Below, piece by piece: positions 18,474 to 58,028 of a stretch of DNA of 64,000 bases. Where the stretch lies: the NCBI RefSeq assembly GCF_963675165.1, contig NC_087379.1, forward strand, positions 7,780,339 to 7,844,338. The letters are read 5' to 3'. The position numbers and the translations under genes are program-made. The notes under the pieces were generated by a model. The model was given only the letters and a program-made list of their open reading frames with translations. It had not been told where the DNA came from and did no database searches. Numbering within the stretch: the stretch's first letter is position 1; every line of letters starts with the position of its first letter. This stretch comes from Halichondria panicea. Lineage: Eukaryota; Porifera; Demospongiae; Suberitida; Halichondriidae.

Positions 18474-18558
<85 letters not shown>

Positions 18559-21500: not shown

Positions 21501-21775
21501 GCTCGGCCAGTGGCACCTCTAACTCTCAACAATCTCGTCAACAACGCCCCTCGAGCGGAAACTCTAACTCTAATAACCGTGGCAACATGGCTGTTCATCC
21601 GTACAATCCTAACATACGTCGTTCACCGTCAATAAGCTCGTCAAGCGAGTTTACGAGTGTCTCCCAGCAACAGATGCCCCCACCCCCGCCATACCAACAT
21701 CCTCAAGGAGTTGGGGTTCTTGTGGAGCCAGACCGTGCAGCAGTTTTTTGGGTCTTCCAACAAGCCTGTGCATAG
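12700..21775 (+). CDS. DVL: Dishevelled, Wnt signalling scaffold (15 exons, 648 aa)
   Basis: Exons 12700-12860, 14575-14644, 15421-15485, 15811-15854, 16082-16262, 16699-16777, 17673-17754, 18012-18099, 18558-18686, 19047-19114, 19303-19467, 19891-20019, 20441-20629, 20973-21152 and 21459-21775 give 1947 nt in frame. DIX domain at residues 1 to about 80 ([17 protein letters not shown]...[18 protein letters not shown]); His/Arg-rich basic region with Ser/Thr clusters about 117-200; PDZ about 215-310 ([32 protein letters not shown]); DEP about 380-480 ([38 protein letters not shown]). Dishevelled polymerises through DIX and binds Frizzled through DEP/PDZ. Usual length is 650-740 aa. The C-terminus is odd: from about 21738 the frame enters transposon sequence and stops, so the usual conserved Dvl C-terminal end is missing. 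Confidence 0.95.
14925..15420. repeat. Minisatellite of acceptor-like units in Dishevelled intron 2
   Basis: About 17 copies of a roughly 28-30 bp unit, agtagttgcctaccacactcctc followed by a C-rich tract and cag. It ends directly in the true acceptor of exon 3 (ctctccccctccag before 15421). The same array with about 14 units abuts the matching exon in unit 2 (40928-41345). Confidence 0.9.
16388..16692. repeat. (CA)n with aacgcccct interruptions, Dishevelled intron 5
   Basis: Long CA-repeat blocks separated by acaacgcccctc or acgccatctccct units, running up to the acceptor of exon 6 (cactttag at 16691-16698). Simple-sequence expansion; the open frames across it are not genes. Confidence 0.9.
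17402..17594. mobile_element. MITE, atagcgggta family
   Basis: Ends accatatagcgggtatatttcgag and its mirror ctcgaaatatacccgctatacagt enclose a short noncoding core with gcgaat/ttcgcg inverted homology. It lies in Dishevelled intron 6. Relatives are at 20221, 35303, 51772 and 52593. Confidence 0.75.
18181..18556. mobile_element. Foldback element plus (CA)n in Dishevelled intron 8
   Basis: Inverted arms ttttctgaaagcttagaaaaagacctttcaaa (about 18232) and tttgaaaggtctttttctaagctttcagaaaa (about 18378) flank a core of about 120 bp. The element ends in ggcagctgaaagagttcccaaacc, followed by a pure CA repeat up to the exon 9 acceptor. Related fragments with ttacggccattgaa and ttggggactcttttagctgcc lie at 60240-60980. 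Confidence 0.7.
19715..19890. repeat. atcacaatataccccc / (CA)n repeat in Dishevelled intron 11
   Basis: Repeats of cacatcacaatatacccccccc with CA tracts of varying length lead straight into the acceptor of exon 12 (acacacag before 19891). Confidence 0.85.
20221..20392. mobile_element. MITE, atagcgggta family (diverged)
   Basis: Starts taccaaatagcgggtaattt, has ccacgaaaa and aaattttacccacgaa motifs, and ends ccacgaaaatcatctgctatgctgtag. It lies in Dishevelled intron 12. Confidence 0.6.
21293..21345. repeat. Short perfect foldback (tagcctcgatcccaggcc family)
   Basis: tagcctcgatcccaggcctc, a short loop with ttggtgaaa, then the reverse complement ending gaggcta. The same family occurs near 9130-9190, 34160-34205 and 48350-48480. 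Confidence 0.8.
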
Positions 21776-22209: not shown

Positions 22210-22532
22210 GCCTGGCAGAGAGGATAGACATTGAACACCCTCTACTCAACAACGAGATTGAGACAACAGAGTTCGTTTATTTGGCGGCTTATTTCGACAA
22301 CGTGATAATGTACAGTCTAGCGTTGGGACTCACTCCTGCTCAGCAAGCTGATGTGAGGCAGATTAAAGTTTTTGAAGACACACAAACGGCCATGATGGAG
22401 TGCTTGCCCCTGTGGCAGAGGAGTAACCCAGCTACTGCAACATATAGAACTCTTATTAAATTACTCCAAAAGATGAGAAGAGACGAAATTGCTAATAAAG
22501 TGTTTAAACATTGCCTAGAGAAGGAACAATGA
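22210..22532 (+). CDS. Orphan terminal exon encoding a DEATH domain
   Basis: The acceptor ccacactacag (to 22209) opens a 323-nt exon that, with incoming phase 1, reads GLAERIDIEHPLL... to a TGA at 22532. Residues from FVYLAAYFDNVIMYSLALGL through PLWQRSNPATATYRTLIKLLQ to IANKVFKHCLEKEQ have the helix pattern of a DEATH domain. The 160 bp upstream match intron 13 of the ankyrin-ZU5 genes, so this is the last exon of a lost paralogue ending in DEATH rather than the CARD-like domain. Copy C keeps a remnant (58518-58559, 58858-58986). No 5' exons for it are nearby. In-frame splicing from Dishevelled exon 14, which also ends in phase 1, is possible. Confidence 0.7.
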
Positions 22533-24885: not shown

Positions 24886-27800
24886 ATGGCTGACATATTC
24901 AGGGCTGCCAGGACTGGTGACTTGAGTGCTTTGCGAGATGCCATCAGGAGGGGGGCTGATGTCAACAGTTTTAGGGTAAGCTGGTTTGTGGGTATGTAGA
25001 GCTGAAGCTGTGAAAGTATATTTTTGCTGTCATGCTATAAATTTAATACCTACCCAATCAAACTCAACCAATGATGTAATGCATAATGCATACTTAAATA
25101 AATGTACGGCATTTACATTGAACTTCCTGGTCTTGGCCGTTCAACTGTACCTTAGTACAGCGCCAACTCAGCTACGACTCAGACTGAACGCAATTAATAA
25201 TTTTTATGGCTTATTAAAAGGCATACCAAGGCAAGTCACCTTTACTTGGCCTATACCATTCTTATGTGCATGCCTTTGATCAGCACTCCTGACTATCGGG
25301 AAGTAGCTTCCTACAGAGATGAAAAATCACACAGTAGATCCACCTGCGAGCTAGCTTGCTGAAAGGTTAGAGTTAGTGTTATATGTACTTTCGTGCGTGC
25401 ACTGGTGGATAACGTCAGATACAACCACTCTATTAAATAATTCCAATCCCCTCTATGACACCGATGTGTTGTCAAAAGTTACTGTATGCTCTCACTCTTG
25501 TAGGATGGGTGGACTCCGCTCATAAGTGCAGCCTTTAATGGTCATACTAACTGTATTAGAGAGCTGCTCTCCTCAGGAGCAGTGGTGGACCTGGCTAACA
25601 AGGTGAGTATCTGATACTAAACTGATGGTCTATAGGAGTTATAATTATACATGGACATTGCCTTAAAATCACCTCTATGCTGAATAATTGTTGACAAGCA
25701 TTCCATGGAATTGATTGGGTTGACTATTATTTTGGTTTGTGTGGATTTTAATCTACCGTCACTCAACTACGAGCTAACTTGCTGAAAGGTTAGAGTTAGT
25801 GTTATGTACTTTTGTGTGTGTGGGTGGATGACGTCAGATGCAACCACTCTATTATAGTAAATATTGCCAATCCTTACTTTATTTGCACCAACTCTGACTG
25901 AATTCCATTATTTAAGTCCTCCAACGGTTGCTGTAATTAAAAGACGTAATTATTTGTGATGTCAGGCTCAAGGCAGTCGGCTTTTCTTTTATTATGCACA
26001 TGCATTTGATTTGTAGAGCTGCTGTAAAATACAGAGACGAAAAATCAAACCGTACAGTTGGTCCACTGCATACTGAAAGATTGCACTCAACACTAGAATA
26101 GCTGTGCGCTTAAGCGCCACCATAATATTTTTGAGGTTATAAAAGTTGATTTAGGCGCTGTAAACTACGCTCACTGCACACTCAGTTTGGGGCAAATGGT
26201 AAATTCCAAAAATAAGTGTAACTATGATCTATCACACAGATGTGTTGTCAAAAGTTATTATTATGCTCTCACTCTTGTAGAATGGGGAGACTCCACTCAT
26301 GGGGGCAGCCAGTGGAGGGCACACTGACTGTGTTAAAGAGCTGCTCTCCTCAGGAGCAGTGGTGGACCTGGCTGACAAGGTGAGTATCTGATACTAAACT
26401 GATGGTCTATAGGAGTTATAATTATACATGGACATTGCCTTAAAATCACCTCTATGCTGAATAATTGTTGACAAGCATTCCATGGAATTGATTGGGTTGA
26501 CTATTATTTTGGTTTGTGTGGATTTTAATCTACCGTCACTCAACTACGAGCTAACTTGCTGAAAGGTTAGAGTTAGTGTTATGTACTTTTGTGTGTGTGG
26601 ATGGATGACGTCAGATGCAACCACTCTATTATAGTAAATATTGCCAATCCTTACTTTATTTGTAATTACAGCACCAACTCTGACTGAATTCCATTATTTA
26701 AGTCCTCCAACGGTTGCTGTAATTAAAAGACGTAATTATTTGTGATGTCAGGCTCAAGGCAGTCGGCTTTTCTTTTATTATGCACATGCATTTGATTTGT
26801 AGAGCTGCTGTAAAATACAGAGACGAAAAATCAAACCGTACAGTTGGTCCACTGCATACTGAAAGATTGCACTCAACACTAGAATAGCTGTGCGCTTAAG
26901 CGCCACCATAATATTTTTGAGGTTATAAAAGTTGATTTAGGCGCTGTAAACTACGCTCACTGCACACTCAGTTTGGGGCAAATGGTAAATTCCAAAAATA
27001 AGTGTAACTATGATCTATCACACAGATGTGTTGTCAAAAGTTATTATTATGCTCTCACTCTTGTAGGCTGGGGTTACTCCACTCATGTGGGCAGCCAGTG
27101 GAGGTCACACTGACTGTACTAGAGAGCTGCTCTCCTCAGGAGCAGTGGTGGACCTGGCTACCAAGGTGAGTATCTGATACTAAACTGATGGTCTATAGGA
27201 GTTATAATTATACATGGACATTGCCTTAAAATCACCTCTATGCTGAATAATTGTTGACAAGCATTCCATGGAATTGATTGGGTTGACTATTATTTTGGTT
27301 TGTGTGGATTTTAATCTACCGTCACTCAACTACGAGCTAACTTGCTGAAAGGTTAGAGTTAGTGTTATGTACTTTTGTGTGTGTGGATGGATGACGTCAG
27401 ATGCAACCACTCTATTATAGTAAATATTGCCAATCCTTACTTTATTTGTAATTACAGCACCAACTCTGACTGAATTCCATTATTTAAGTCCTCCAACGGT
27501 TGCTGTAATTAAAAGACGTAATTATTTGTGATGTCAGGCTCAAGGCAGTCGGCTTTTCTTTTATTATGCACATGCATTTGATTTGTAGAGCTGCTGTAAA
27601 ATACAGAGACGAAAAATCAAACCGTACAGTTGGTCCACTGCATACTGAACGATTGCACTCAACACTAGAATAGCTGTGCGCTTAAGCGCCACCATAATAT
27701 TTTGGGGGTTATAAAAGTTGATTTAGGCGCTGTAAACTACGCTCACTGCACACTCAGTTTGGGGCAAATGGTAAATAAGTGTAACTATGATCTATCACAC

Positions 27801-30800
27801 AGATGTGTTGTCAGAAGTTATTATTATGCTCTCACTCTTGTAGGATGGGTGGACTCCACTCATGGTGGCAGCCAGTGAAGGTCACACTGACTGTACTAGA
27901 GAGCTACTCTCCTCAGGAGCCTTAGTGGACCTGGCTGACAAGGTGAGTATCTGATACTAAACTAATGGTCTATAGGAGTTATAATTATACATGGACATTG
28001 CCTTAAAATCACCTCTATGCTGAATAATTGTTGACAAGCATTCCATGGAATTGATTGGGTTGACTATTATTTTGGTTTGTGTGGATTTTAATCTACCGTC
28101 ACTCAACTACGAGCTAACTTGCTGAAAGGTTAGAGTTAGTGTTATGTACTTTTGTGTGTGTGGATGGATGACGTCAGATGCAACCACTCTATTATAGTAA
28201 ATATTGCCAATCCTTACTTTATTTGTAATTACAGCACCAACTCTGACTGAATTCCATTATTTAAGTCCTCCAATGGTTGCTGTAATTAAAAGACGTAATT
28301 ATTTGTGATGTCAGGCTCAAGGCAGTCGGCTTTTCTTTTATTATGCACATGCATTTGATTTGTAGAGCTGCTGTAAAATACAGAGACGAAAAATCAAACC
28401 GTACAGTTGGTCCACTGCATACTGAAAGATTGCACTCAACACTAGAATAGCTGTGCGCTTAAGCGCCACCATAATATTTTTGAGGTTATAAAAGTTGATT
28501 TAGGCGCTGTAAACTACGCTCACTGCACACTCAGTTTGGGGCAAATGGTAAATTCCAAAAATAAGTGTAACTATGATCTATCACACAGATGTGTTGTCAA
28601 AAGTTATTATTATGCTCTCACTCTTGTAGGATGGGCGGACTCCACTCATATTGGCAGCCAGTGGAGGGCACACTGACTGTGTTATACAGCTACTCTCCTC
28701 AGGAGCAGTGGTGGACCTGGCTAGCAAGGTGAGTATCTGATACTAAACTGATGGTCTATAGGAGTTATAATTATACATGGACATTGCCTTAAAATCACCT
28801 CTATGCTGAATAATTGTTGACAAGCATTCCATGGAATTGATTGGGTTGACTATTATTTTGGTTTGTGTGGATTTTAATCTACTCACTCAACTACGAGCTA
28901 ACTTGCTGAAAGGTTAGAGTTAGTGTTATGTACTTTTGTGTGTGTGGATGGATGACGTCAGATGCAACCACTCTATTATAGTAAATATTGCCAATCCTTA
29001 CTTTATTTGTAATTACAGCACCAACTCTGACTGAATTCCATTATTTAAGTCCTCCAACGGTTGCTGTAATTAAAAGACGTAATTATTTGTGATGTCAGGC
29101 TCAAGGCAGTCGGCTTTTCTTTTATTATGCACATGCATTTGATTTGTAGAGCTGCTGTAAAATACAGAGACGAAAAATCAAACCGTACAGTTGGTCCACT
29201 GCATACTGAAAGATTGCACTCAACACTAGAATAGCTGTGCGCTTAAGCGCCACCATAATATTTTTGAGGTTATAAAAGTTGATTTAGGCGCTGTAAACTA
29301 CGCTCACTGCACACTCAGTTTGGGGCAAATGGTAAATTCCAAAAATAAGTGTAACTATGATCTATCACACAGATGTGTTGTCAAAAGTTATTATTATGCT
29401 CTCACTCTTGTAGGATGGGCGGACTCCACTCATGGGGGCAGCCTATATAGGTCACACTGACATTGTTAGACAGCTACTCTCCTCAGGAGCCGTGGTGGAC
29501 CTGGCTGACAATGTGAGTATCTGATTGTGTTTATAGGCAGCATGTTTGTGACCATTAATTTTCATCATTTGGCAAATGAAATATTTGCGCATGTACTTAC
29601 AATTATGCACATTGCCAGTATTTTAATTGTTACGTTTTGCTTATAATTTTACGCTTATCTTGCTTATTTGTGTCTAAGTTGACGAACTGGGCTGCATACG
29701 TTTTCGTGGATATGTTGTACACAAATGAATAATTATGATACGTACGTAGCACTTAAAAAGGTTGTACAGTTTAATAACATAGCTGGATAGTTGCATTTTT
29801 GCTCTTTGCCAATCCCTTTCCTTTACTTTATTTATGGTCTATCGCACAGATGTGTTCTCAAAAGTTACTGTATGCTCTCACTCTTGTAGGGTGTCTGATT
29901 TGCTAAATTTTCTGTGACGTACATACGTATATATACATGCAGTTGTAGGTGTACTGTCATCATTGTTAAGTACATGTACTGACAATCACATGCATGACTG
30001 TACATTTCCTTAGTGCTTTAAACTGATGTCCCAGCCGGTTTTAATTTTTATGTACTGTACGAGGTTGTTGTGCTTGTGTTCTCACTCTAGGATGTGGTTG
30101 GAAATGTAGAGCAGTGAATGTCTGTATTGTTCAATGTACATTCATATTGTGTTGTCACTGTCTCCACTCCTGCAGGATGGGGACACTCCACTCATGGAGG
30201 CAGCCAACTGGGGACGTGTAGATACAGTAAAGACCCTTCTCTCATCAGGGGCTTCTGTTCTCTGCACTAATAATGTGAGCACATGTACTTTATAGAGTAC
30301 ATAGTTGCGTAGTTATACTTAACAAACAGCTTTACATGTACTGTACACCTATACCTCTTACAGTAGTTAATGACTGAACAGAGCTGTCATTTGTACCTTA
30401 ACAGATAACTCTTAACGTGCTATTACCATGCCAGTATCGCTCTGTCAGCAAAGTACATGTCATACGCATTAGACCACTTTACCTCTTACAATGTACGTCT
30501 CATCCCTTCATATGATCATCATCACAGGATGGACAGACAGCTCTGATGAGAGCCAAGGAATCAGAATACTCTAACCCTTCAATAATAAAGCTGCTGGAGG
30601 AAGCTACTGAATCACATGTGAGTCCATACCTCAATAATGCACACACTGATCATGAGTGTTTTAGTTTACATAATTATGTACATGTTCATCAATGAAATAA
30701 TGGCATCGTTTTCTTTTCGTTTACTTTGCCGATTTTTGATTATTTTCACTGATGAGCTCGTACTTTTCTTTGATACAGTAATACTGTCAGTGATGTAATT

Positions 30801-33800
30801 TAGTGGTCTTAACTGTATTACAGTTCCAATATTACACACACCCAAACAACATGAATACCATTACATGTTCCTCCTCCCCCCCACACACACACACACACAG
30901 TCACGTCCGCATTCTGTTCCAGTCCTACCCAGGAACTGGACTATTGTAACCGACGAAGAAACGTGAGTGGCTATTGCACAGTTGAGTCACTAGCTTTATG
31001 AATGTGAGTCAAAATAGGAAGAAGCCAGTCTACCAGAACAAGGCAGCAGGGGAAACCGTCTCTACACCACCTGGATGTAAGTGTGTGCTTGTGCTGTATC
31101 CAGCACATGGTTCTGTGTGTTTACCTCCTGTGTAGATCCCCTGCACCAAACCTCCGCACACCCTGATGTCACTTTTTACGACAAGCCTCAAGAGAAGGAG
31201 TTCACCTCCAGTGGTGGTCATGCCGATTTTGATAATGGAGTTCACGTGACTGTTCCAGCTAATGCTGTCCCAGCAGGGACCTCTGTGGGCATTAAAGTCC
31301 AACCCAGCCTTGCATCCAAAGAGGTATTTGTGATGCCTGAGGGCATTCAGTCTGCCAGTCCGTCCTACTTGATCTCTGGTGAAGGTCTAAACGGAGAGGT
31401 GACCCTGAGCATGGAGCATCATGTACGAGTGTCCACCCAACAAGAAGCTGATGACCTCCTCTTTCTCCAAGCTGACTCGTCTCCCAAGAGATCTGGTTCT
31501 CATAGTGTCTATGAGTACCAGAAAATACCAGAGGGGAGATCAGAGTTCTCTCCTGGAGGGAACACTGGGAGACTGACGCTGGGCACACGGCTGAAGAACT
31601 TCTTCAAAATTGGACGGAAAAATAGAGGTTAATACTTAGAAAAATGACCAATTGACCGATTATATTATATGTACAGGCAATACTGACAGTAACCTCTACA
31701 CTGTCAGAGTCTACCGGTCTCCTCCACAAACAACTGAGGACAGGATAGCCATCATTGTAGTCAGTCTCTGTGGGAGCTTATACGCTAAGGTAAGATGGCT
31801 CAATTGAAGTGTGCTCATTTTATGTATCTACAGTTTCTGAGGACGCTTGATACAGTGTTGATCCCACGAGACTATCCTGAAGTGTCTTCAAAGTCAATTG
31901 ACAGGACGACTCAAGGATCACTGACGTTTGTTGATGTGTGTGCCACTCTCAACATTCACCCTGTGCAAGGATGGTCTGTGGAACCAGACAAGAAATTGGT
32001 AAAATGTGAAGTTGGACACACTCTTAAAATCACATTATCTAATTTCAGATCTTGCGTAGTGAAGTGGATCAGCCTGAGATGGAGAAGTACAGACCTGAGG
32101 ATCTCCACGACTACCCTCCCAGGATAATCTGCAGGCTCTTCCCTGAGAAAAATGCTCCCAAGAGAACCACCTGTACCATCTCCTTGTCTGGACTACTGCC
32201 ACAGGTCGAATTGTACATACGATTGACAGCACTCACCCCCAAAGTTGCTGTGGATACTACTAAACTACAGGTATTCACTTTTGTACAGTGTAGCCTCTTG
32301 AAATGGTGTAGTGGGTACCTTTGGACTAAATTTACCCACTTGATAGCTCTTTGTTAAATCAACTTGAACATGTATAAGTTAATTAATGCACACACAGTTT
32401 TTGTTTACAATGTACATTGTAGTTAAGTCTCATTCCAATTTGTTTAGGAGGCCACTGATGAGTTGAGAAGGTCTGCCCTGGCAGTCAGTGACACACAACT
32501 TGGCTCTACTGTGAAGAGTGTAGTGTCTCTGATGGAGAGAATGACTGCTGCTCTGAGGTACCACTCAATTGTCTAGTGGAAGTTTGATTATCCTTTTCTA
32601 AAGGTCATCTTCTCTGAGTGAGCTGACAGGCCACACTGACTCCATACGGACAGAGATAGCGTCTGTCCTTGTAGTGACCAGGAGGGTTGTCGAGGAGTGC
32701 ACAGTACAGAGCATCAGTGAGAACATGGGAGCTAGTCTCTCTAAGATGGAGACTTTATCTCACCAGCTTTGTCATGTGGCCAAGGTCAAACTCAGATACT
32801 GTCTAGGTGAGAACATGTGTTTATGATATCAAGTGTTAGCTCTCATTCTCGTAGGTACAGACCAGTCAGAGGAGACAGCTGCTCTTGTTGACCTGGTGGA
32901 GAACGGAGCTAATCTGTTGAGAGCTGTGGACTGTCTACTCAGGGACATCCACACACTCAGTGGAGTCAGTGGTGAGTGTACATTGTCAGCTGTGTATTGA
33001 GTATTAAAGGTACCTACCTATTATGTGCACATTGTTAATCCTCCATTTGTTCAATACCACATTCCCTATTCTTGTGTACCGTATAAACTCTATTTAAGGC
33101 GTCACGTTAAAATAGTTACGTTGGTAAAGGTAGCTCTATTAGGAGGTTGGTTTCAAGGCTGGATGGCGCGTCTTTAGAGGGGTGCGTTCTAATTAGAGGT
33201 AAAACAGCTTTGCAAAATGGGCTGTGAATGTAGAACCCCTGCAGCAGTTTTTTTGGTCTTCCAACAAGCCTGTGCATAGGTTGCACACGTTAAAGAGGTA
33301 CTGTGGTTCGTTTTGGCTTGAGGGCTACCCAGATGTGGAAGAAAGAATTCAGTGTGATCTGTTTGCTCATTTTATCTCTAATTACCGCGCACGTTGAAAA
33401 TAATTACTCACACATGTGGAGCTCATTTAGAGTTTCAAAATTACTTTGGAGGCTTCATGGCGCATCTTTAGAGGGGCTCCTTAAAAAGAGCTTATGCCGT
33501 GTACTGAGTCTGTTAGTCTGTTAGTCTCATTTCTTGTACATTGTGTAATTGTACGTGTGCCATAATCTTTCCACTTCCTCCTATTGTGTACTACCAGCCA
33601 TATACAGTGTATTGTACATGTACTGAGTCTATTTGTTCACATTACATGTACTTAGGTCTCCAGTGTGTGGGCGTATCATGCTCTAACTATTTCCTCTCTC
33701 CTGCAGGTAACGCTGGCTACAGTGTGCTGGTGAGCTGCAGTGAGAAGATAGTCCAGTCACTCTCTGAGGAACCGAAGGCCTTGGCCCTCCACCTCCTGTC

Positions 33801-37637: not shown

Positions 37638-38191
37638 TATTGTATTACTATGACAGCATCCTCTTCCACTCCTTTGTTGCCTTCTTTGAGCTATGACAAC
37701 GTCCTCTTCCGCTCCTTTGTTGCCTTCTTTGAGCTACGACAACGTCCTCTTCCGCTTCTTTGTTGCCTTCTTTGAGCTTTTAATTAACCCTCATGCACAA
37801 ACCGCATGCATTTATAATTACTAATTCCAATGATTCTTATAATACTAGCCAGAGAGTTGTGTAGGTCTAAAGAGAGAGTACAGAACAGCGTTGCTACTAC
37901 CACACGGAGAAGGTGAAGCGGCCCGAATAAAGCCAATCCCTCTACAGAAGAAACCAGTGGCAGTGAACACAGCTAGCAGACAAGGACAAAGAGAATTATT
38001 ATTGATTTTGATAGGAGGTGATTTGTCACATACGTTAATAACTGAATGCTCTCACTGGTTCACCTAGTACCTATATAAGCACACGCTTGATGTGTTGTGA
38101 ATGACTTGCGTTACCATTCTAGTGATCCTGAAAGTGAATTTATTAATATAGCGAAACTTTCTCTATAGCTGCTCAAAACGCCAGCCATATT
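37638..38191. promoter_or_regulatory. Duplicated bidirectional promoter, coiled-coil gene / DIX-RING gene
   Basis: Near-identical to 12187-12699, with three rather than two copies of the 45-bp repeat at 37655-37780. The DIX-RING gene therefore starts under a copy of the Dishevelled promoter. Confidence 0.5.
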
Positions 38192-41100
38192 ATGGAGGAA
38201 ACGAAAGTCATATACTACATTGATGACGAGGAAACCCCGTACCTGATGAAGATAGGCAAGCCACCAGAGCTGGTCACCCTTGGAGACTTCAAGGGACAGC
38301 TCAATCGCACATACATCAAGTTCTTTTTCAAGTCAGAAGATGATGATTTCGGGTGAGTGTAAAGGAGACGTTGTAATACAGTATTTGTAGAGCTTAGTTT
38401 GCTAGTTATAGTAGTACTGCATGTATGCTATAGCACTACACCGCTTTCGATCAGGAATATCAAGCGTAGCTAGTCTGCATGATTGCTATTCAGGTGTCTA
38501 TACACACACTTCAAAACTACAGTATATTTGTGTTGAGGTTGACCTTCATAATGTTGTCATAACTTTCACTGAAATTCATATACCATTGGATTCCTTGTTA
38601 AAAAGCGCTTCTATCTATATACTGTAGAGCTGATAACCTTCAACCAGCTAAAAGTTTAGCATTTTCTCTGGCATACTTGTCAACCACATAATTTAAAACC
38701 ATAAATGAAGCCATAATTGACCACATAGCTTCCAGGGCCGAACTCAACGCAAATAGACTTTAAGTCATGTCGCCAGGTATATCTATCTTCGGGTTGAATA
38801 ATGCATGTTTCGTCAGTGATTTTGTTCGAGGACATCATGCTAGAGTAATTGTTGACCTATTTTGGTGTCTTAAATTAAATTAGGAAAAAATATACTGTGA
38901 GTCTGGTACAATTGCCAACGCGAGTTTGTGCGGACTCTGCAGGTACTTTTTTACACTATACAGTTGTAAATAATTTATATAGCACTACATTGTATTAAAG
39001 AAAGCTAGCCTCCAGTCTATTGTTTTATTTTTATTATAGTCAAACAGACTATCTCATGGTACCAAGATAAGATTCAAGCACTATAAAATTAATGCAGTGG
39101 AACCTCCGAATAAAGGACACTTTGGGAGCAGAGCTTTGTCCTCTTTTCGAAGGTTGTCCTCCGGTGGGAGGTTCATTCATAGCCATATCAAGGAATTATA
39201 GATAGTATGTTCATGTATTGTTCATGTATATAGTATGGACCCTATTTCTAGTTCAAGAAGCTAAGGAACTTGCTAAAATCAAAGATATAAAACAACCTCC
39301 TTCTCGTCCTCTGTCCGGAATCAAGAAGGAGGTTGCTTTTGTGTACTTACATAGTAATTTCAATCAGTGCCATAGCTAGTGTCCTTTATAGAAAGGTTGT
39401 CCACTAGTAAGAGGGTCCGTTATGGGAGGTTCCATTGTATAAAAACAATTCTACTGCTTCCAGAGGAGAGGAGTATAGTCAGGGTCAAAAGTTCAAAATC
39501 AAAATCTACTTCGGGGGACATTTTAATGACATTCCGATCGTGTAATCTTCCTTTAGTACCTCCAACCCTTGTAAACTTCACTGTGGTTGGAGGTAACAAA
39601 GAAAGAAAACAATTGAAATGCAAGTGCATAATTAGTCTCGCGAGCAGACGTGGGAGGGAGGTAACGTTCCCTCCCTCCCACGTCTGCTCGCGAGACTAGT
39701 GCATAATCTACCTATGTATAAGGTCGAAGGTGAGTCTAGTAGTCCAGTCCAGTGTATAGATACACCCCCCCTCTTGTCTGTTTTGGGTGTGGAGCATATT
39801 CAGGGATTCTACAAGTAACAAGATAGTTTTTATAATGATGCCCATACATTTATTGTTATTTTTCACATCATGGTTATATTCACTGTGGTTTCATTATGTA
39901 TGCAGTGTTGTTAAGGAAGAACTGGCTGAAGATGATGCTCTACTGCCCCAGGTCAATGGTCGCGTCGTGTGCTGGGTAAGTGCCTCACTATATTACGATG
40001 TGTGTTATGTCTATGTGTTATGTGGTGCTCAAGTTCATTATATGCCTCGAGGCGTAGCCGCATGAGGAAGCTGACTGAGTGTGTGTATTCCAGCTGTAAC
40101 TGCTAAAAACGATTGCAATGCAACGACAAATAACAGCTTCTCTATATATACATGTATAAGGCTTCTAGCCATGTTCTCTTGGATTTTGATTTGTGGATTT
40201 GCAAACTAAAGCTTCTTTTTCTAGTTTTACTTACAGTGAAGGCTGTTGCAGTCTCTTCAGAATTGTTCCTAGCATCATCTGCTCGCACAAAGTTTCTCAA
40301 TTTATGAGTTAGCCTTATACTAATGCACTAGCTATTTGTTAGCTACAAGAGTCAGAAAAGGCACTGCAAAGCTGTACTGCCAGAGCTGCAGCAGCCATTG
40401 CGAACTTACCTATTGCAGATACACTCCTTTTTAATCTGAGGCGTGTGGGCGGCCACGGGTTATAGTAGTCGTTTAGTTTGTTTGTTTGTTTGTAATTTCT
40501 GAGTCTACTCACAATAAGTTACTACTTTTTTTAATAGTGGCAGATTTTGATGTTAAAACTTTATTGTCGAATAAAAGCGAGCAGAAGCTAAGGAGCTTGA
40601 ACCTTGCACAGCTAACACGCGTCGTTTATTCGAGGTACTGTTTAAGTGATCTCGTACCAGGACCAATGGAACAGGGTCGCTAAAGTCAAGAGCACATTAT
40701 AGAAGGAGCGTCTAACTCTGCATGGGTTCGGAAATCGCATCTCGTGTGTTTTTCTAAACGCCGCATTGCCTTATGAAAAGTGTGTAAGTACTGTGTACAT
40801 CAATTACAGGCTTTTGGAGGCCTCCTTCTGTGTCTGTATATCCTAGTAAAATGTATTTTCTCACACTATGGTTGGTGTTAATTCAGCTTGCTAATAACTA
40901 TCACCACCCACTATAGCCAGGTGTCTTGCCAGTAGTTGCCTACCACACTCCTCTCCCCCCAGTAGTTGCCTACCACACTCCTCTCCCCCCAGTAGTTGCC
41001 TACCACACTCCTCTCCCCCAGTATTTGCCTACCACACTCTTCCCCCCCAGTAGTTGCCTACCACACTCCTCTCCCCCAGTAGTTGCCTACCACACTCCTC

Positions 41101-44100
41101 CCCCCGAGTAGTTGCCTACCACACTCCTCTCCCCCAGTAGTTGCCTATACCACACTATTCTCCCTCAGTAGTTGCCTACCACACTCCTCCCCCCCAGTAG
41201 TTGCCTACCACACTCCTCCCCCCCAGTAGTTGCCTACCACACTCCTCTCACCCAGTAGTTGCCTACCACACTCCTCTCACCCAGTAGTTGCCTACCACAC
41301 TCCTCCCCCCCAGTAGTTGCCTACCACACTCCTCTTCCTCTCCAGGTGATCACAGAGTCTAATGTTTCAGGATCAGAGGCTAGTGGCTCTGAGGGAGACT
41401 TCATAAAATTTCAATCCAAGGACCTACTGTTTGAAGCAAAAACTCACAGCAGTCCCAATAAGTAGGCAATACAAGTAGTAGCTATAGCTAGTATGCTGTG
41501 CAATGGTGTGTACTTGTACAATGTTGTTGCTAACTACTGTATAGGTTTTGAATATTAATAGATCCCATTTGAGTGCATTTAGCAGGGAACTATGAGCTAT
41601 AGTACCCGTACTATAGATTGCTCTGGGCTACAAACTACAACATTATACATTGTATTGTCATTTACAAGAAGATACACATATAAATTATTGTAGCTAGAAT
41701 CCCAGCATGATGCTTAGTCTAGTAACATAATAACAGAACTAGAATGGAAGAGAGAAGCTCTAGAGTATTTTTTGGCTTTGTTCGAGAGTAGTAGGAGCCG
41801 TTCGTTTCTTGGGCAGTGTGCTGTACTTTTTGCTGCAAGGCTGCATGGGGGAGGAGCTGGATGTATGGAAGTGCTGGGATTCTAGCTTTGGCTTCTTCTT
41901 TTGGCTTTGTTCAAGAGTAGTATAGGAGCCGCTCGTTTGCTGCAAATTCTAGCTTAGGTGTCTTCCTTTCGCTATGTGAGAGTAGTATATGAGCCGCTCG
42001 TTTCTTGGGAGTGTTATTTGCTGCAAAATTGGGGGAGGAGCTGGACGTTTCCGTTTTGTGGGTGGAGCTAGATCCAGGACTATAATTTTATAAACTGAGG
42101 TGGAGGAACAGGGTTAACTTGAATAGAGACCACAGATTTAGTAGAGACACAGAGATGCCAACTTCAGATACAAAAGAAATGATGCGGTTGCTAGGTTGGC
42201 TGTTTATATAGGTTGACTGTTGCTAATTATAAGCTAGTGCATTTCTAGTAGCCAATAGGTTTTGCGATCTAAATCAGTTAGAACATGTGTATTCGGTATC
42301 TATGGTTATAGTGTCCCTCATCCCTCAGGCGTCATGCCCATGTTCTAACTATAACCTAGTGTATGTGTACTGTTACTACCTCCTTGCAGTGGAGGTGTGA
42401 AGTTCCATGGTAGTCTGAGATCACCTGCCCCCCTAGTGCCACAGGGCACACAGAGAGGACCTGTGGTGAGGCAGATACTTATATACGATGTAGCTTCATG
42501 AACAGTGTCATGCAGCCTCCTTCACAAGGCCTAACAAGGAGGCCTGCTACTGACCGCTTGTGCATGCGCAAAATTATTGAATAATTTCCCTGTAGTAATT
42601 ATTTCCCATTAAACTGAAATTTTACCCGAAAAATATCCTGAATAACATACAGACAAAGAATACTATTAAAGTCATACACAGAACTATATAGCTAGCTAGC
42701 AGAGACAGATCTGTACGTTTGGTTGCAGCAGCTATTTCTTTCTGATAGAGTTTACATGTATACTTTCACCAAGGTTAGTATAGGCGTGGCCTGTCCATAT
42801 AGGCTATTGTCAGCCTTCCCTCCGTTCAGACGATTATCATCCACACTGTTGCAGGCTGTGAGTCTTTTGTTAACATAGCAGGCTAAGGGTAGCTATTAGA
42901 ATACTACCAGATGGGCTAGAAACCTTCAATCGAACTTCTATCTACTTTCTTCAATCCACTTCCGTTGTGATGTCAGTGTTTTATTGAGCATAATTATACT
43001 ATGATATTTGGAGTCCCCAGTTTCTGGGGATTATGTGGTGCATGCGCAAACAGTCGATACCAGGCCCATCTTCAGTGCGGCCGGGAATCGAGGCTAGAAC
43101 AGTGTATGCATGTAATAAATGTCCACTATAAATGTGTCGTGTCCATTCATCCATCAGGTGTACCCTGCTCCCCTGCGTACTGGCAGTGCTACCCACCACC
43201 CACCGTCTGCCTCTCTGCCAGTTGGAGTTTTGATTACTGCTGGAGGTGGTAAGATCTTTGTTACGTGTTTGGTATCTTTGTGGTATACCATTTTCTTCTG
43301 AAGTATCTTTGTGAAGTAGTTAGGATTACCTTTCCATTTACATGTAGATGCAATGTGCGATCTAGGTAAGTCTACCTTTACATGACTGTATTTTATATGG
43401 GTGCATATTGTACAGTATACCAACTCTGAGCAATAGTCAATTCTTATGTGAAGTATGCCCACCTCCAGCAGTGGCGGATCCAGAGGGGGTTCTTTGGGTT
43501 CAATTGAACCCCCCTTTGAGAAAGAAGTGAGTGGGAGACTCAAGCAACTAGTTAGCAAGTTTTTCCTTTCTTACTAGCTTTCACATGCACTTCTCACTTA
43601 TCTTTAGTCCTTGTTAGTCCTGCGAAGCTTTGTCTGTGCAGTTTCAGTGACTATGAAGGCTAAAAACTCTCCAGCGTGAGCGTAGTGCATGCAGATTGCT
43701 TATGAAAAATGATGACCTCTTTTTTTAGGAAAAAATTCGGTGCGCATGCTCACTGTTTCAAAGAAGTGACGACATTTTTTTTAGGTAAATTTAACAGTCC
43801 TTGACCGCTCAGAGCCATGGAACCCCCCTTTCAAGAATCCTAGATCCGCCACTGTCCAGGTAGTGTAGGTATGGCTGCTGAGCTGTGCTTCCTGTGTGAG
43901 GATCCAATAGACATTAAGTTTGAGCCATGTGGTCATGCTGTCATGTGCTCAGCATGTGCACAGAGAACCAGAAAATGCCCCATTTGCAAAGTGAGGATTA
44001 AGTCAAAGTCCATAGAAAACCCTTCGTAAATTTACCTCGCACCTTAAAGGCTTCCCACTTAGTATCATACAGTTCATTTAGTCTAGAGAGTAGATTACCA

Positions 44101-46178
44101 CAAATGTGTGAGTAGTTGTACTTAAATGTAAATATCTTTTGATTGGAGCATTTCTAAGAAATGGTGTTGATACTTGTGTGTAGATAAATGACTGAACTAC
44201 AACATATCCAAAAATGTTTCCATGGAAACATAAGGTGGTGGGTTTGTGGTGATTAATAGAACAACAGCAAATTGTTATAGTGGGTAATCGGTTAGAGTAA
44301 TAAAACAGTAATCTTGTACAGCTAAGGTCCTAGACTTCATCACATAATTGTTCAATGGTTTAGGTATCCTGGCCATCCCTTTATGGGTGTTACAAATGTT
44401 CACATAATTCATGATTTACTGGTTTTCAGGTACACTTTTGGTTAGAGTAATAACTTTTAAAAAATTAATAGCTTAGCTTTAAAATTTTTATAGTAAGTTT
44501 ACAGATAAATGGGCTACATTTTGATACCAAGAACATCTTCCATTGCTGAGATAACATGACATCAACAGCTGCAAACCACAAACCAATGAATCGATGCTTT
44601 ATCAACCACAAACGTAATTAAGAGTGGGCGTACAGTTATTGTACGCCCACTTACGTGGTTAATTAAAGTGTCATCGATTTGTGGTTAGCAGCTTGTGATG
44701 TCATCAAAACAGTAAAATAGTAGAATATGTAGTTTTTCAGTGATATTTCAACAATGGAATAAGCATAAAGGATGTTCTTGGTATCAAAATGTAGCCCATT
44801 TATTTGTAAACTTACCAGAGAACTTTTAAAGCTAAGCTATAAAATTTTCAGAAGATATTACCAAAAGTGTACCTAAAAACCGGTAAATCATGAATTATAG
44901 ACACTGTGAGCATATGGGATGGTCAGGAAACCTAAACCATTAAACGATTATGTGATGAAGTCTAGGACCTTAGCTGTACAAGGTTAGTGTTTTATTACTC
45001 TAACCGATTACTCACTATAACAATTTGCTGTTGTTCTATTAATCACCACAAACCCACCACCTTATGTTTCCATGGAAACATTTTTGGATATGTTGTAGTT
45101 CAGTCATTCATCTACACACGGGTATCAACACCATTTCTTAGAAATGCTCCAATCGAAAGATATTTACATTTAAGTACAACTACTCACACATTTGTTGTAA
45201 TCTACTCTCTAGACTAAATGAACTGTATATGAATTTCGTGGAATGGCCTCTAAAAGCATTTCGTTGAATAAATTTTGTGGGTTGACTGCTAACCTGAAAC
45301 ACTCCCAGGTCACGCCTTTTAATCTTTGCACATTATAGCAGATAATTCTAAATAACAATTTTCCTGGAGTTTTGTGCTAACCCGAAAACAGCGAAAATTA
45401 AGCTCCTCGAAAATTTCGTACTGTACGGTACTTTTGTTGAAGAGTACAATTTGCAGATGTTGCAGATTATGATTATCCCTTACACAGGCTGCAGTCAAGA
45501 CTATCTCCAAGCTGTCCAAGGTTTGTGTGATGTGTAATGAAGAGGAGGCCACAGCCACTGTCAAGCCATGTGATCACACCTTCTGTCCAGGTACTGGTAC
45601 TTAATGATAGGTATATGCATCACTCAGAAACAGCCTCTCTGTGTGGTTTATAAGCCCCCACTATCCTCCACAGTCTCACCTTTCTTTCATATGTACTAGC
45701 TTTCATTTACTGTCTTCTCCCTCTCTCACTGTATAGAATGTGCCCGGAGGATGAAGACATGCTTCGAGTGTCGAGTGCTTATTACTGCAAAAGAGGGACT
45801 ACGTACGTAAACTGCATTACAAGTTTACACAAGCTGTGTTGTTTAATTAGATAACCTCTATAACTGTATAGTACATGTACTTAGCAATATTGTGATTTTG
45901 TGTCAAATAATACCTCCCCCCCCCACACACACACACACACATACACATACATCCACCCACCCACACACACACACATACACACAGCCCCCGTCTCGGCCAC
46001 TAGTGTTCATCCGCTGGCCAGCCCTGACTCTGAATCTAAATGTCCTATTTGTCTGACAGAGCCTAAGAACACGTCCTTCCTGTGTAGACACCAGACATGC
46101 TGGGACTGTGCACAGAAGGTCGACCATTGCCCCGTGTGCAAGAAGTTTGTGACTCATAGAATTCAGTTGTTTCAGTGA
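38192..46178 (+). CDS. DIX domain fused to triple RING fingers (9 exons, 335 aa)
   Basis: Exons 38192-38352, 39906-39975, 41346-41461, 42390-42465, 43158-43248, 43860-43990, 45488-45590, 45737-45802 and 45985-46178 give 1008 nt in frame with phases 2,0,2,0,1,0,1,1. Residues 1-77 are a DIX domain almost identical to the Dishevelled of unit 1. A linker (to about 171) follows. Then RING1 (C181, [17 protein letters not shown]...CPIC), RING2 ([18 protein letters not shown]...CFEC) and RING3 ([20 protein letters not shown]...[15 protein letters not shown]) resemble the C-terminal three RINGs of Mind bomb E3 ligases. Inferred role: a ubiquitin ligase able to join DIX polymers of Dishevelled/Axin. 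Homology to Dishevelled stops in exon 3 near 41399. Weak point: the exon 3 donor (gtaggc) overlaps a TAG stop; gtttga at 41429 is an alternative in the same phase. Otherwise there are two genes: a short DIX protein, and a RING protein starting at M43871. Confidence 0.7.
39094..39437. mobile_element. Inverted-repeat element (cagtggaacctcc ends)
   Basis: Left cagtggaacctccgaataaaggacac mirrors right gtccgttatgggaggttccattgta, enclosing about 300 noncoding bases in intron 1 of the DIX-RING gene. A partial relative is at 59655-59852 (gtgaaacctcc ... cagaggttccactgg). Confidence 0.75.
39633..39698. mobile_element. 66-bp near-perfect palindrome with target duplication
   Basis: tagtctcgcgagcagacgtg...cacgtctgctcgcgagacta, flanked on both sides by agtgcataat (39623-39632 and a copy overlapping the right end). 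The 9-10 bp duplication suggests a transposed foldback, similar in style to 51065-51118 and 55189-55517. Confidence 0.75.
40446..40690. mobile_element. gggcggccacgggttatag repeat, second copy
   Basis: Matches 22950-23200 (gggcggccacgggttatagtagt, tttg repeats, gcagattttgatgttaaaa, aaaagcgagcagaagctaag). Lies in intron 2 of the DIX-RING gene and is absent from Dishevelled intron 2. Confidence 0.7.
40928..41345. repeat. Minisatellite of acceptor-like units in DIX-RING intron 2
   Basis: About 14 copies of cagtagttgcctaccacactcctc plus a C-rich tract, homologous to 14925-15420, ending at the exon 3 acceptor ctcttcctctccag. Copy number differs from the Dishevelled copy. Confidence 0.9.
43469..43854. 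mobile_element. Inverted-repeat element (cagtggcggatc ends) abutting the RING1 acceptor
   Basis: Ends cagtggcggatccag and ctagatccgccactg, with further inverted homology (ttgaaccccccttt / ggaaccccccttt). Flanked by the 5-bp direct repeat tccag at 43464-43468 and 43855-43859. The right copy of that repeat contains the AG acceptor of the RING1 exon, which starts at 43860. Confidence 0.8.
44070..45225. mobile_element. 1.16-kb palindromic mariner-like MITE in DIX-RING intron 6
   Basis: Two arms of about 570 bp are reverse complements along nearly their whole length (cagttcatttagtctagagag at the left end, ctctctagactaaatgaactg at the right), meeting at about 44640 in gtgggcgtacagttattgtacgcccac. 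TA dinucleotides flank both ends, and the termini begin CAGT, as in mariner-type elements. No transposase frame is visible. The intron transcript would form a very long hairpin. Confidence 0.85.
45230..45432. mobile_element. Probable decayed MITE (ccgaaaa / tacggtac type)
   Basis: Contains atttcgtgg, taaattttgtgggtt, cgaaaacagcgaaaatt and ends ctcgaaaatttcgtactgtacggtac, recalling the atagcgggta family. The ends no longer match well. Confidence 0.4.
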
Positions 46179-46550
46179 CAATTTAGTATTTGTTTTGTTT
46201 AATTGTTGTTCTTTCTTTTCTGACTTTGTCATGCAGACTTTTTTATGCGATGTGTTTTAAGGTTTTAGGTACACGTGCAGTGAACATTAGACAACTTTTG
46301 TGTGTAGTGTTAATTGTTGTTTCGTTATTTATGTCAATTGTTAGTTATCAATGAATTAATGGTAATAGTATAATAGCACTGCACACGGTCAGTGAGCAGA
46401 CTATAGATGATTTGTGCCCCAGTATAGGAATTAAGACAGGGAGTCAAAGACATTTTAAGTCTCATACTATGCAGCTGGTCTCGAGGCTAGTCTGGACCTC
46501 TATTATATACTGGATCTCATCCATAAATTGTCAGAGGAATTGTAATTATA
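46179..46550. other. Downstream region of the DIX-RING gene, no feature seen
   Basis: AT-rich, probably 3' UTR and intergenic DNA. No reliable exon, repeat or RNA gene seen. Confidence 0.4.
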
Positions 46551-46554
46551 GGAA

Positions 46555-46690
46555 AATTAATATACATCCGGTATTGCATGGGCGCGCGGGAGGGGTCTAA
46601 TGCGCAATGCAACACTTGATTTGCCACGGGATCGGAGCTCATCATTACTCGATTATCAACTATCAATGAGCTCAATGGCCTCTGCACCAC
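46555..46690 (+). repeat. Left copy of a direct repeat flanking a LINE fragment
   Basis: tatacatccggtattgcatggg...gggaggggtctaatgcgcaatgca, then cacgggatcggagctcatcattactcg and atgagctcaatggcctctgcaccacctatggttac. A second copy lies at 47887-48059. In the right copy the frame from atgagctcaatg continues MSSMASAPPMVTPPAAPPP, which could be the first exon of a gene; I found no partner exon. Confidence 0.65.
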
Positions 46691-46879
46691 CTATGGTTAC
46701 CTATGGTTACCTATATTGTTATAGTTACCTACGGTTACCTATATGGTTACCTATATTAATAATAATAAATAATAATCATTGAACACGCCAGGAATAGGTG
46801 TACATAATTATTATAATTATTACATGTATAGTAATAGTATAGTACTAGCTATAGTGCAAGAATTGTTAGTCCAACTTAA

Positions 46880-55517: not shown

Positions 55518-58028
55518 ACACTAATCATGGGTGTTAAGTTTAAGATCAATGATGTACACGTACATATGAATAATATATCGTTTTTTTTTCATTAGGAATT
55601 AATGAATTAATTTTCTTTAGGAAGAAGCCAGTCTACCAGAACAGGGCAGCAGGGGAAACCCTCTCCACACCACCTGGATGTAAGTGTGTGCTTGTGCTGT
55701 ATCCAGCACATGGTTCTGTGTGTTTTACCTCCTGTGTAGATCCCCTGCACCAAACCTCCGCACACCCTGATGTCACTTTTTATGGTGAACCTCAAGAGAA
55801 GGAGTTTACCTCGAGTGGTGGCCATGCCGACTTTGATAATGGAGTTCAAGTGACTGTTCTAGCTAATGCTGTCCCAGCAGGGACCTCTGTGAGCATTAAA
55901 GTCCAACCCAGCCTTGCCCCCAAGGATGTGTTTGTGATGCCTGAGGGAATTCAGTCTGCCAGTCCGTCCTACTTGATTTCTGGTGAAGGTCTAAACGGAG
56001 AGATGACCCTGAGCATGGAGCATCATGTACGAGTGTCCACCCAACAAGAAGCTGATGACCTCCTCTTTCTCCAGGCTGACTCGTCTCCCAAGAGATCTGG
56101 TTCTCATAGTGTCTATGAGTACCAAGAAATACCCAAGGGGAGGTCAGAGTTCTCTCCTGGAGGGAACACTGGGAGACTGACGCTGGGCACACGACTGAAG
56201 AACTTCTTTAAAATTGGTCAAAGAAGAAAAAAAGGTGAATATTTGAAAATGTGAATGACTTCTATTTTAACATAATGCATGTACAGGCAAGACTAACAGT
56301 AACCTCTACACTGTCAGAGTCTACCGGTCTCCTCCACACACAACTGGGGACAGGCTAGCCATCATTGCTGTCAGTCTCTTTGGGAGCTTATACGCTAAGG
56401 TAAGATTGCTCAATTGAAGTGTGCTCATTTTATGTATCTATTAAATGTACAGTTTCTGGAGACGCTTGATATAGTGTTGATCCCACGAGACTATCCCAAT
56501 GTTTTGAGAGAAGCGGCTGACAGGACAACTCAAGGACCACTGACGTTTGTTGATATGTGTGCCACTCTCAACATTCACCCAGTGCAGGGATGGTCTGTGG
56601 AACCAGACAAGGAATTGGTAAAATGTGAAGTTGGATACACTCTTGAAATCACATTCTCTTCATTTTCAGATCTTGCGTAGTGGAGTGGATCAGCCTGAGA
56701 TGGAGAAGTACAGACCTGAGGATCTCCACGACTACCCTCCCAGGATAATCTGCAGGCTCTTTCCTGAGAAGAATGCTCCCAAGAGAACCACCTGTACCAT
56801 CTCCTTGTCTGGACTACTGCCACAGGTCAAAGTTCACCTATCATTGAAAATACTCACCCCCAAAGTTGCTGTGGATACTACTAAACTACAGGTATTCACG
56901 TTTGTACAGTGTAGCCTCTTGAAATGGTGTAGTGGGTACCTTTGGCAAACTAAATTTTACCCTATTAATAGAATTTTCCTCTTTTGTATACCATCATGCG
57001 TGCTTGTACACCTCCCTCCTAGACTGCACTGTTGAGTACTAGTGTATGAGAACCTGACCAAACTGTTATACTGATTGTCTCCATATTGTACAGGAGGTGT
57101 GAGAGGTGTGGTCACTGGCTCGGACTGTATACAGGTATCCTGCATGTACTGCTTATATACAGTTTAGCTGTAAATGGGTAATAATCAGTTTGCAACTGAA
57201 GTTGATGCAATTAAGTATTTACATTTTGCTTTATGCACTGAAACACAGTGATTCTCACAGTCTAAGTGTACCTGCTTCCTCAGGTTGAGGCTGGCGTTGC
57301 ACGGAAGGTTCCGACTGTAGCCAGCACTGTGGTGGACATTAATGTACGTTTATTTTGTACGTACTTACATTGTAATTATAGCTGTGAGTTAGCACAATTA
57401 ACCGTGTATATACACTGCTAAATGTTGCTTGGCTGACCTACATTGTATGCATGTCCATGTTACAGTACTGTATGTTGGCAATCTCATTTCTTTTTGCTTA
57501 ATTATCTTCTGTAGGAAGCCACTGAAGTACTGAGGAGAACAGTTGGTGAGATGACCACCTCACAGCTTGACTCTACTGTGGAGACTGTACTGTCACTAAT
57601 GGAGAAAATGACAGCTGCACTTCAGTGAGACGTCTACTGTTTTAATGGTAGTGCTGTATTCACAATATGTCCCACCTCAGGTCATCTTCTCTGAGTGAGC
57701 TGACAGCCCACACTGACTCCATACGGACAAATGTTAGGTCCATTCGTCGACTGGCCAGAAAGATTGTCAAGGAGTGCAACATTGGAGCCAGTCTCTCTAA
57801 GATGGAGACTTTATCTCATCAGCTTGGACGGTTGGCCGAGGACAAACTCGAAGACTGTCAAGGTGAGAATACATTGTACCAGGCAGGGTTTGGGGCAGGG
57901 GGAGAAAACTTCCCCCCAAAAACGGAATAATGGCATCATCAATTTATTCAACAACAACCAGACTGTACTGTATTAAACACTGTGATATGTACACTATTAT
58001 CTCTGCCCTACTATAATGCATATAATGG

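Follow-up and report, generated by a model that had tools for sequence, protein, structure and literature searches.

Within a window of 64,000 bases of the Halichondria panicea genome (C3:7780339-7844338 of assembly G000, which spans 131 Mb in 39 contigs and is the one genome covered here), we found a plus-strand gene model, hereafter unit 2, that looks from its sequence like an old and maintained chimeric gene, combining the DIX exons of a tandem Dishevelled copy with the six final exons of a triple-RING gene family located nearby. We lean toward the view that a joined DIX-RING product is made from this gene.

Gene model and genomic setting of unit 2

The model (38192-46178) comprises nine exons, with a frame open from the ATG at 38192 to the TGA at 46176-46178, GT-AG introns of compatible phase throughout, and a predicted product of 335 aa. 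Translation reproduced the start, end, exon borders, phases and final 15 protein letters given in a preliminary description of this locus. Exon 1 (38192-38352, 3' phase 2) and exon 2 (39906-39975, 3' phase 0) encode the DIX domain, and exon 3 (41346-41461) is Dishevelled-derived until 41400, after which it consists of about 61 bases of what was apparently a RING-gene intron. Exons 4 and 5 (e4, 42390-42465, with entry phase 2 and homologous to a RING-family exon; e5, 43158-43248) form a linker, followed by RING1 with its eight zinc ligands in exon 6 (e6, 43860-43990), the first and second parts of RING2 in exons 7 and 8 (e7, 45488-45590; e8, 45737-45802), and RING3 with the stop codon in exon 9 (e9, 45985-46178). 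Intron 6 also holds a fold-back element (44067-45228) whose 313-base arms (44067-44379 and 44916-45228) are 96% complementary and which has a second, nested pair.

Searching the predicted product against Pfam, we obtained a DIX match at aa 3-78 that covers the complete model (positions 1-77 of 77; 97.9 bits against a cut-off of 22.2; 3e-28) and three zf-C3HC4_3 stretches (90.9 bits summed, 4e-26), with nothing besides DIX and RING-type families at E<=1, and hence neither PDZ nor DEP. The earlier claim that six further exons carry the frame through matching phases into three RING fingers thus holds. All 24 zinc ligands are intact as read from the translation, and the C3HC4 pattern is complete in each of the three RINGs.

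A genome-wide DIX search returned seven loci. Five form the tandem series on C3; of the other two, the C17 locus lies in a gene with an additional RGS domain (Axin-like) and the last is on C5. Among the tandem copies only unit 2 has the DIX-RING arrangement, while units 1, 3, 4 and 5 continue from DIX into PDZ, DEP and further Dishevelled exons by exon matches. Consistently, tblastn with PDZ and DEP (E<=1e-4) matched only copies 1, 3, 4 and 5 among the window and the fetched stretches searched. The Pfam 'Dishevelled' model PF02377 matched nothing in the genome, nor in the controls, and is therefore uninformative. Unit 1 (12700-21718, plus strand), with DIX, PDZ and DEP exons, served as the comparison copy, and the three other DIX-PDZ-DEP copies lie on C3 at about 83.3, 107.3 and 291.8 kb in window-relative coordinates. 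Intron 1 of units 3, 4 and 5 is 95-97% identical to its counterpart in unit 1, and these four Dishevelled copies are apparently a recent expansion. For Amphimedon, PMC3564985 lists one Dvl, drawn from GenBank rather than from a whole-genome search.

A 29-base minisatellite sits in Dishevelled intron 2 right before the exon 3 acceptor (about 14842-15431 and 40917-41345), and intron 2 of unit 5 is much shorter than in the other Dishevelled copies. Tandem arrays with units of 71/90 bases and about 786 bases occur in duplicated segments (window 1-1525 and 25409-29642). A 160-aa open stretch with no Pfam match at E<=0.01 recurs eight times, three times in the window (6068-6547, 31135-31614 and 55739-56218) and five times outside, upstream of Dishevelled or Death-ankyrin-RING genes; identity to its L030 representative is 86-98%. 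A putative minus-strand gene, noted by eye, starts at about 37637, head-to-head with unit 2.

The junction inside exon 3

The preliminary description had the homology to Dishevelled ending inside exon 3, and we place the break at about 41400. In the other Dishevelled copies, exon 3 ends in GACTCTGAATCTGT/GTAAGT (the slash marking the splice site) in phase 2; unit 2 tracks them up to GAGGGAGACT, whose last base is 41400. From about 41398 onward, unit 2 aligns instead, with many gaps, to the RING-family intron that precedes e4, a remnant that MAFFT alignment failed to place and that was located by gap-tolerant local alignment. The stretch 41390-41560 scores 136.5 against this intron in L030 and L034, 132.5 in L031 and 128.0 in L037, compared with a top shuffle score of 64.0 (200 shuffles each). 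The 63-base tail of exon 3 alone scores 51.5 (L030), 51.5 (L034), 47.5 (L031) and 43.0 (L037), with best shuffles in the same order of 41.5, 39.0, 38.5 and 41.5 (1,000 each), so that the L037 value barely exceeds its own shuffles. The former RING-family intron is thus recognisable both in the end of exon 3 and in the start of intron 3, which rules out a Dishevelled origin for the end of exon 3 and places the join between a coding exon of Dishevelled and an intron of a RING gene.

The RING-family intron preceding e4 is itself of phase 2, and the top-scoring donor in the exonised stretch, at 41462 (TAA/GTAGGC), is likewise of phase 2. It overlaps an in-frame TAG (41463-41465, plus strand) that closes a DIX-only product when the donor is unused. 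On a vertebrate donor matrix this weak donor scores -0.18, where the other donors in unit 2 span -0.68 to 6.18: it resembles two donors shared with L030 (0.02 and -0.68) and lies far under the other five (3.8-6.2). Among the 4,538 GT dinucleotides on the plus strand of the window, 10.8% score at least as high. By naive reckoning, chance would give agreement of phase at the new junction in about 1 of 3 cases and a stretch of 20 open codons with a probability of about 0.4, so the continuous frame is by itself modest evidence. We give more weight to the synonymous bias of the DIX exons together with the divergence of intron 1.

Divergence of the two halves and alternative readings

The claim that the DIX exons of unit 2 are near-identical to those of unit 1 stands for exons 1-2 and for the 500-base 5' flank, and fails for the introns. 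The flank, the last 500 bases of a putative promoter region common to the Dishevelled copies (37640-38191, plus strand), has 479-489 identities with each of the four other copies, the remainder being 7-17 mismatches and 8 gap columns, in agreement with the suggestion that unit 2 carries a copy of the Dishevelled promoter. Exon 1 differs from that of unit 1 at 4 of 161 bases; its 3-4 mismatches are synonymous without exception, and exon 2 of unit 3 has one additional base change. Intron 1 of unit 2 aligns over its first 1.4 kb or so with none of the four other copies, and its end is 76-84% identical to them. Unit 2 is therefore no fresh duplicate of another tandem unit.

We counted codon changes in the DIX half against units 1, 4 and 5, leaving unit 3 out. 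The first 78 codons of unit 2 have 5 synonymous and 0 nonsynonymous changes relative to units 4 and 5, and 4 and 1 relative to unit 1; for the whole stretch of 95 codons before the break, the synonymous and nonsynonymous counts rise to 10 and 3 relative to either unit 4 or unit 5, and to 9 and 4 relative to unit 1. Expressed per site against copy 4, with half-counts rounded for the Fisher tables, exons 1-3 before the break have nonsynonymous changes at 3 of 222 sites and synonymous changes at 10 of 63 (Fisher 2.5e-5), and the first 78 codons at 0 of 184 and 5 of 50, respectively (Fisher 0.0004). By rough reckoning, an unconstrained unit 2 would be expected to have gained several amino-acid changes beside its synonymous share. 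As these contrasts are pairwise and the changes not assignable to one lineage, the sister copies account for some of the constraint; gene conversion of a promoter-exon 1 patch is possible as well.

For the RING half, a genome search with RING1 gave 16 further matches at E<=0.001, of which 11 are 73-78% identical to it (ten on C3 at 7.50-8.03 Mb and one on C15). Exons e4-e9 recur in the ten copies compared (e4 missing in one, e9 in two); the exon counts omit L038-L040, which comprise the copy on C15 and two distant ones. By these matches, e4-e9 of unit 2 belong to a local, clustered family of Death-ankyrin-triple-RING genes. L030, the only member run through Pfam, has upstream ankyrin exons (1e-14 and better) and an upstream Death exon that scores 20.1 bits, below the 22.6 cut-off; a related Death exon in the window (22218-22529) reaches 29.9 bits. 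The exon preceding e4 is alignable in eight family copies. The RINGs had been called Mind bomb-like, and this description suits RING3, whose nearest PDB sequence is MIB1 RING3 (1.4e-9); their derivation lies elsewhere, since the RING half groups with the local family, ruling out an origin from a Mind bomb gene proper. Within the cluster (L029-L038; C3 7.50-8.03 Mb and C15) some copies are apparently damaged, L030 has one base fewer in the exon preceding e4, and one L036 copy has four additional bases in e8. A conserved exon tentatively taken for ZU5 has no Pfam match at E<=0.01 and is left unnamed.

With L030 alone as reference for the contrast between exons and introns, e4, e5 and e6 are identical at 69 of 79, 79 of 88 and 113 of 131 aligned columns (86-90%). 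Introns 4, 5 and 6, at 692, 611 and 1,497 bases, compare with 101, 196 and 123 bases in L030, and only 62, 128 and 31 columns are alignable, with 46, 98 and 26 identities (74-84%). Around exon 6, the conserved block against P029, P030 and P037 (43855-43995) consists of the exon plus 5 bases on each side, and extends to 44015 against P034. Length changes in the linker exons are in frame: e4 is 3 bases shorter than in eight of nine copies, a state shared by eye with P029, and e5 is 9 bases shorter than in nine of ten, the tenth being 2 bases longer than unit 2. Introns 7 and 8, by comparison, are identical to L030 at 141 of 146 and 170 of 181 positions (94-97%), so that e7-e9 have no exon/intron contrast against L030 and their openness may be due to recent conversion; the e7-e8 region, which matches the majority sequence across 169 bases, suggests the same.

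Counted against P030, nonsynonymous and synonymous changes number 5 and 2 in e4, 4 and 5 in e5, 11.5 and 6.5 in e6, and 4 and 5 in e9, with none in e7 and e8. Exon e6 is fast (11.5-13.5 nonsynonymous changes), and e4 exhibits no constraint (5 nonsynonymous, 2-3 synonymous). The synonymous bias is significant over e4, e5, e6 and e9 together (p = 0.008) and without e4 (p = 0.003), and non-significant over e4 and e5 (p = 0.24). Overall, constraint on the RING half is, as far as these counts indicate, weaker than on the DIX half and partly masked by gene conversion.

Several other readings of the locus have to be weighed against a joined product. It is rather unlikely, in our estimate, that unit 2 yields a truncated DIX-only protein of 116 aa that ends at the TAG at 41463 and perturbs Dishevelled polymerisation, with the RING exons separate, either as a short RING gene starting from the exon 6 ATG or as a decaying tail. 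The weakness of the exon-3 donor and its overlap with the TAG speak for such a product, as do the ATG at 43871 in exon 6, which is GTG in ten other aligned copies and could serve as the own start of a RING-only product, and the bias against amino-acid change, strongest in the DIX half and lacking in e4. Exons 4 and 5, however, keep their splice sites and length shifts in threes whereas introns 4 and 5 have changed far more, and they require an upstream exon of 3' phase 2, which is what exon 3 supplies. Also against a DIX-only product, no AATAAA or ATTAAA occurs at 41463-42607, although none occurs at 46178-46700 either.

We judge it improbable that unit 2 is a chimeric pseudogene, transcribed or silent, whose frame owes its openness to luck and to gene conversion by sister copies. 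Some RING copies do look damaged or incomplete: six of the ten examined are open across e4-e9, while P036a lacks e4 and has stops, no e9 match lies beside e8 in P032 and P036b, whose fetched pieces end soon after, and P029 is unclear because its e4 runs into a repeat. The majority sequence in e7-e8, the alike introns 7-8 and the unusual similarity of promoter and exon 1 among copies also point this way. Against it, every splice site is intact, and a fresh junk copy fits poorly because intron 1 is mostly private and no longer recognisable while the DIX domain differs from copies 4 and 5 by five changes, all of them synonymous. An assembly misjoin of Dishevelled and RING copies, which the preliminary description had named as a possible refutation (an error at 41.4-42.4 kb), is very improbable and was dropped as the main reading. 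The array is highly repetitive, and the more distant stretch of e7-e9, introns included, has 91-96% identity with four of the ten copies (those printed), but close to the junction both halves lack a near match in other copies: the DIX exons are about 0.16-0.18 synonymously diverged from the three copies counted, RING1 about 0.29 from seven of ten copies and 0.34-0.35 from the other three, and 85 bases spanning the junction match only themselves in a genome DNA search (which skips common words).

Proposed action and comparison with known systems

Taking the joined product as the preferred reading, we propose that a Dishevelled copy in the tandem array was broken within exon 3 and joined to an intron of a nearby Death-ankyrin-triple-RING gene, the one preceding its six final exons. 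This event would have removed the original donor of exon 3, and a cryptic donor of the right phase in the captured intron would now splice exon 3 to e4, so that the Dishevelled promoter would drive a 335-aa protein with the order DIX, linker, RING1, RING2, RING3.

The DIX domain matches 12 distinct PDB sequences at E<=0.001, all labelled DVL2, DVL1, Dixin or Axin, with DVL2 the best of them (1.7e-27). In alignment with the DVL2 chains, unit 2 has the equivalents of DVL2 Y27, V67 and K68 (position 27 being another residue in two of the four DVL2 chains shown), the last of which we take to be a head-to-tail interface residue. Y27 and V67 are reported interface residues, and in human DVL2 ubiquitination of K54 blocks polymerisation while that of K58 weakens it (PMC4423210); counted on the PDB alignment, the unit 2 equivalents are K43 and K47. 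Head-to-tail oligomers are known for DIX domains, as is a complex of the Axin and Dvl2 DIX domains (PMC7458405). Since the unit 2 DIX is amino-acid-identical to that of two of the four PDZ/DEP copies over 78 codons, its product should join Dishevelled and Axin polymers, entering them head-to-tail; having neither PDZ nor DEP, it could not take a receptor-coupling role.

RING E3 ligases have an E2-binding residue and a basic linchpin after the last ligand, and the residue after the last cysteine in RING1 to RING3 of unit 2 is K, R and K, respectively. In RING3, this K replaces an R found in seven of eight other e9 copies (P029 has K), and CGH has become CRH; both changes could weaken RING3. MIB1 requires its RING3 for known substrates (PMC6713736). 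The MIB1-like RING3 of unit 2 may therefore be pictured as ubiquitinating polymer partners, capping or removing them, and the product would then most likely be a negative regulator, or brake, of signalosomes, by analogy with these systems. Counting against this direction, modification of the Dvl1 DIX domain by K63-linked ubiquitin is listed as a possible enhancer of signalling (PMC3977945). The fuller scheme, a self-assembling DIX-RING ligase that dismantles Dishevelled and Axin polymers, with the donor AATAA/GTAG switching splicing between the ligase and a DIX-only blocker, is doubtful and offered tentatively. If a natural DIX-RING ligase is real, it would provide an in vivo test of whether ubiquitination sets DIX polymer length, and unit 2 would exemplify how tandem arrays make new signalling proteins, as a coding exon is broken, an intron captured and a cryptic donor of fitting phase put to use.

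In searches of open-access full texts we found no DIX-RING protein, in line with the preliminary description, and by its predicted domains unit 2 would represent a combination of DIX with triple RING for which these searches gave no description. A survey of 1,452 DIX candidates in eleven subclades reports DVL, AXIN, DIXIN, SOSEKI and four SAR groups with a kinase, ELMO, DnaJ or no extra domain; it gives Dishevelled, Axin and Dixin as the animal DIX proteins, and the section consulted names no RING effector (PMC12077222). In PMC7042713, neither RING nor ubiquitin ligase turned up when the main text was searched for these words.

Compared with Dishevelled, unit 2 shares the N-terminal DIX, exons 1-3 until the break and the 5' flank, and differs in having three RINGs in place of PDZ, DEP and the later Dishevelled exons. 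With Mind bomb (MIB1) it shares three C-terminal RINGs, the third nearest to MIB1 RING3, whereas its RING1 is nearest to IAP and MYLIP RINGs, its N-terminus is a DIX domain, and it has no MIB/HERC2, ZZ, REP or ankyrin match (Pfam E<=1). The closest likeness in e4-e9, phases and the intron 3 remnant is to the local Death-ankyrin-triple-RING family, which differs by its upstream ankyrin and Death exons (as in L030) and has no DIX. In overall plan, unit 2 resembles the SAR 'Musketeer' proteins (PORTHOS with a kinase, ARAMIS with ELMO, DARTAGNAN with DnaJ), which likewise combine DIX with an unrelated C-terminal effector domain, although the effector in each of these differs from the RINGs of unit 2.
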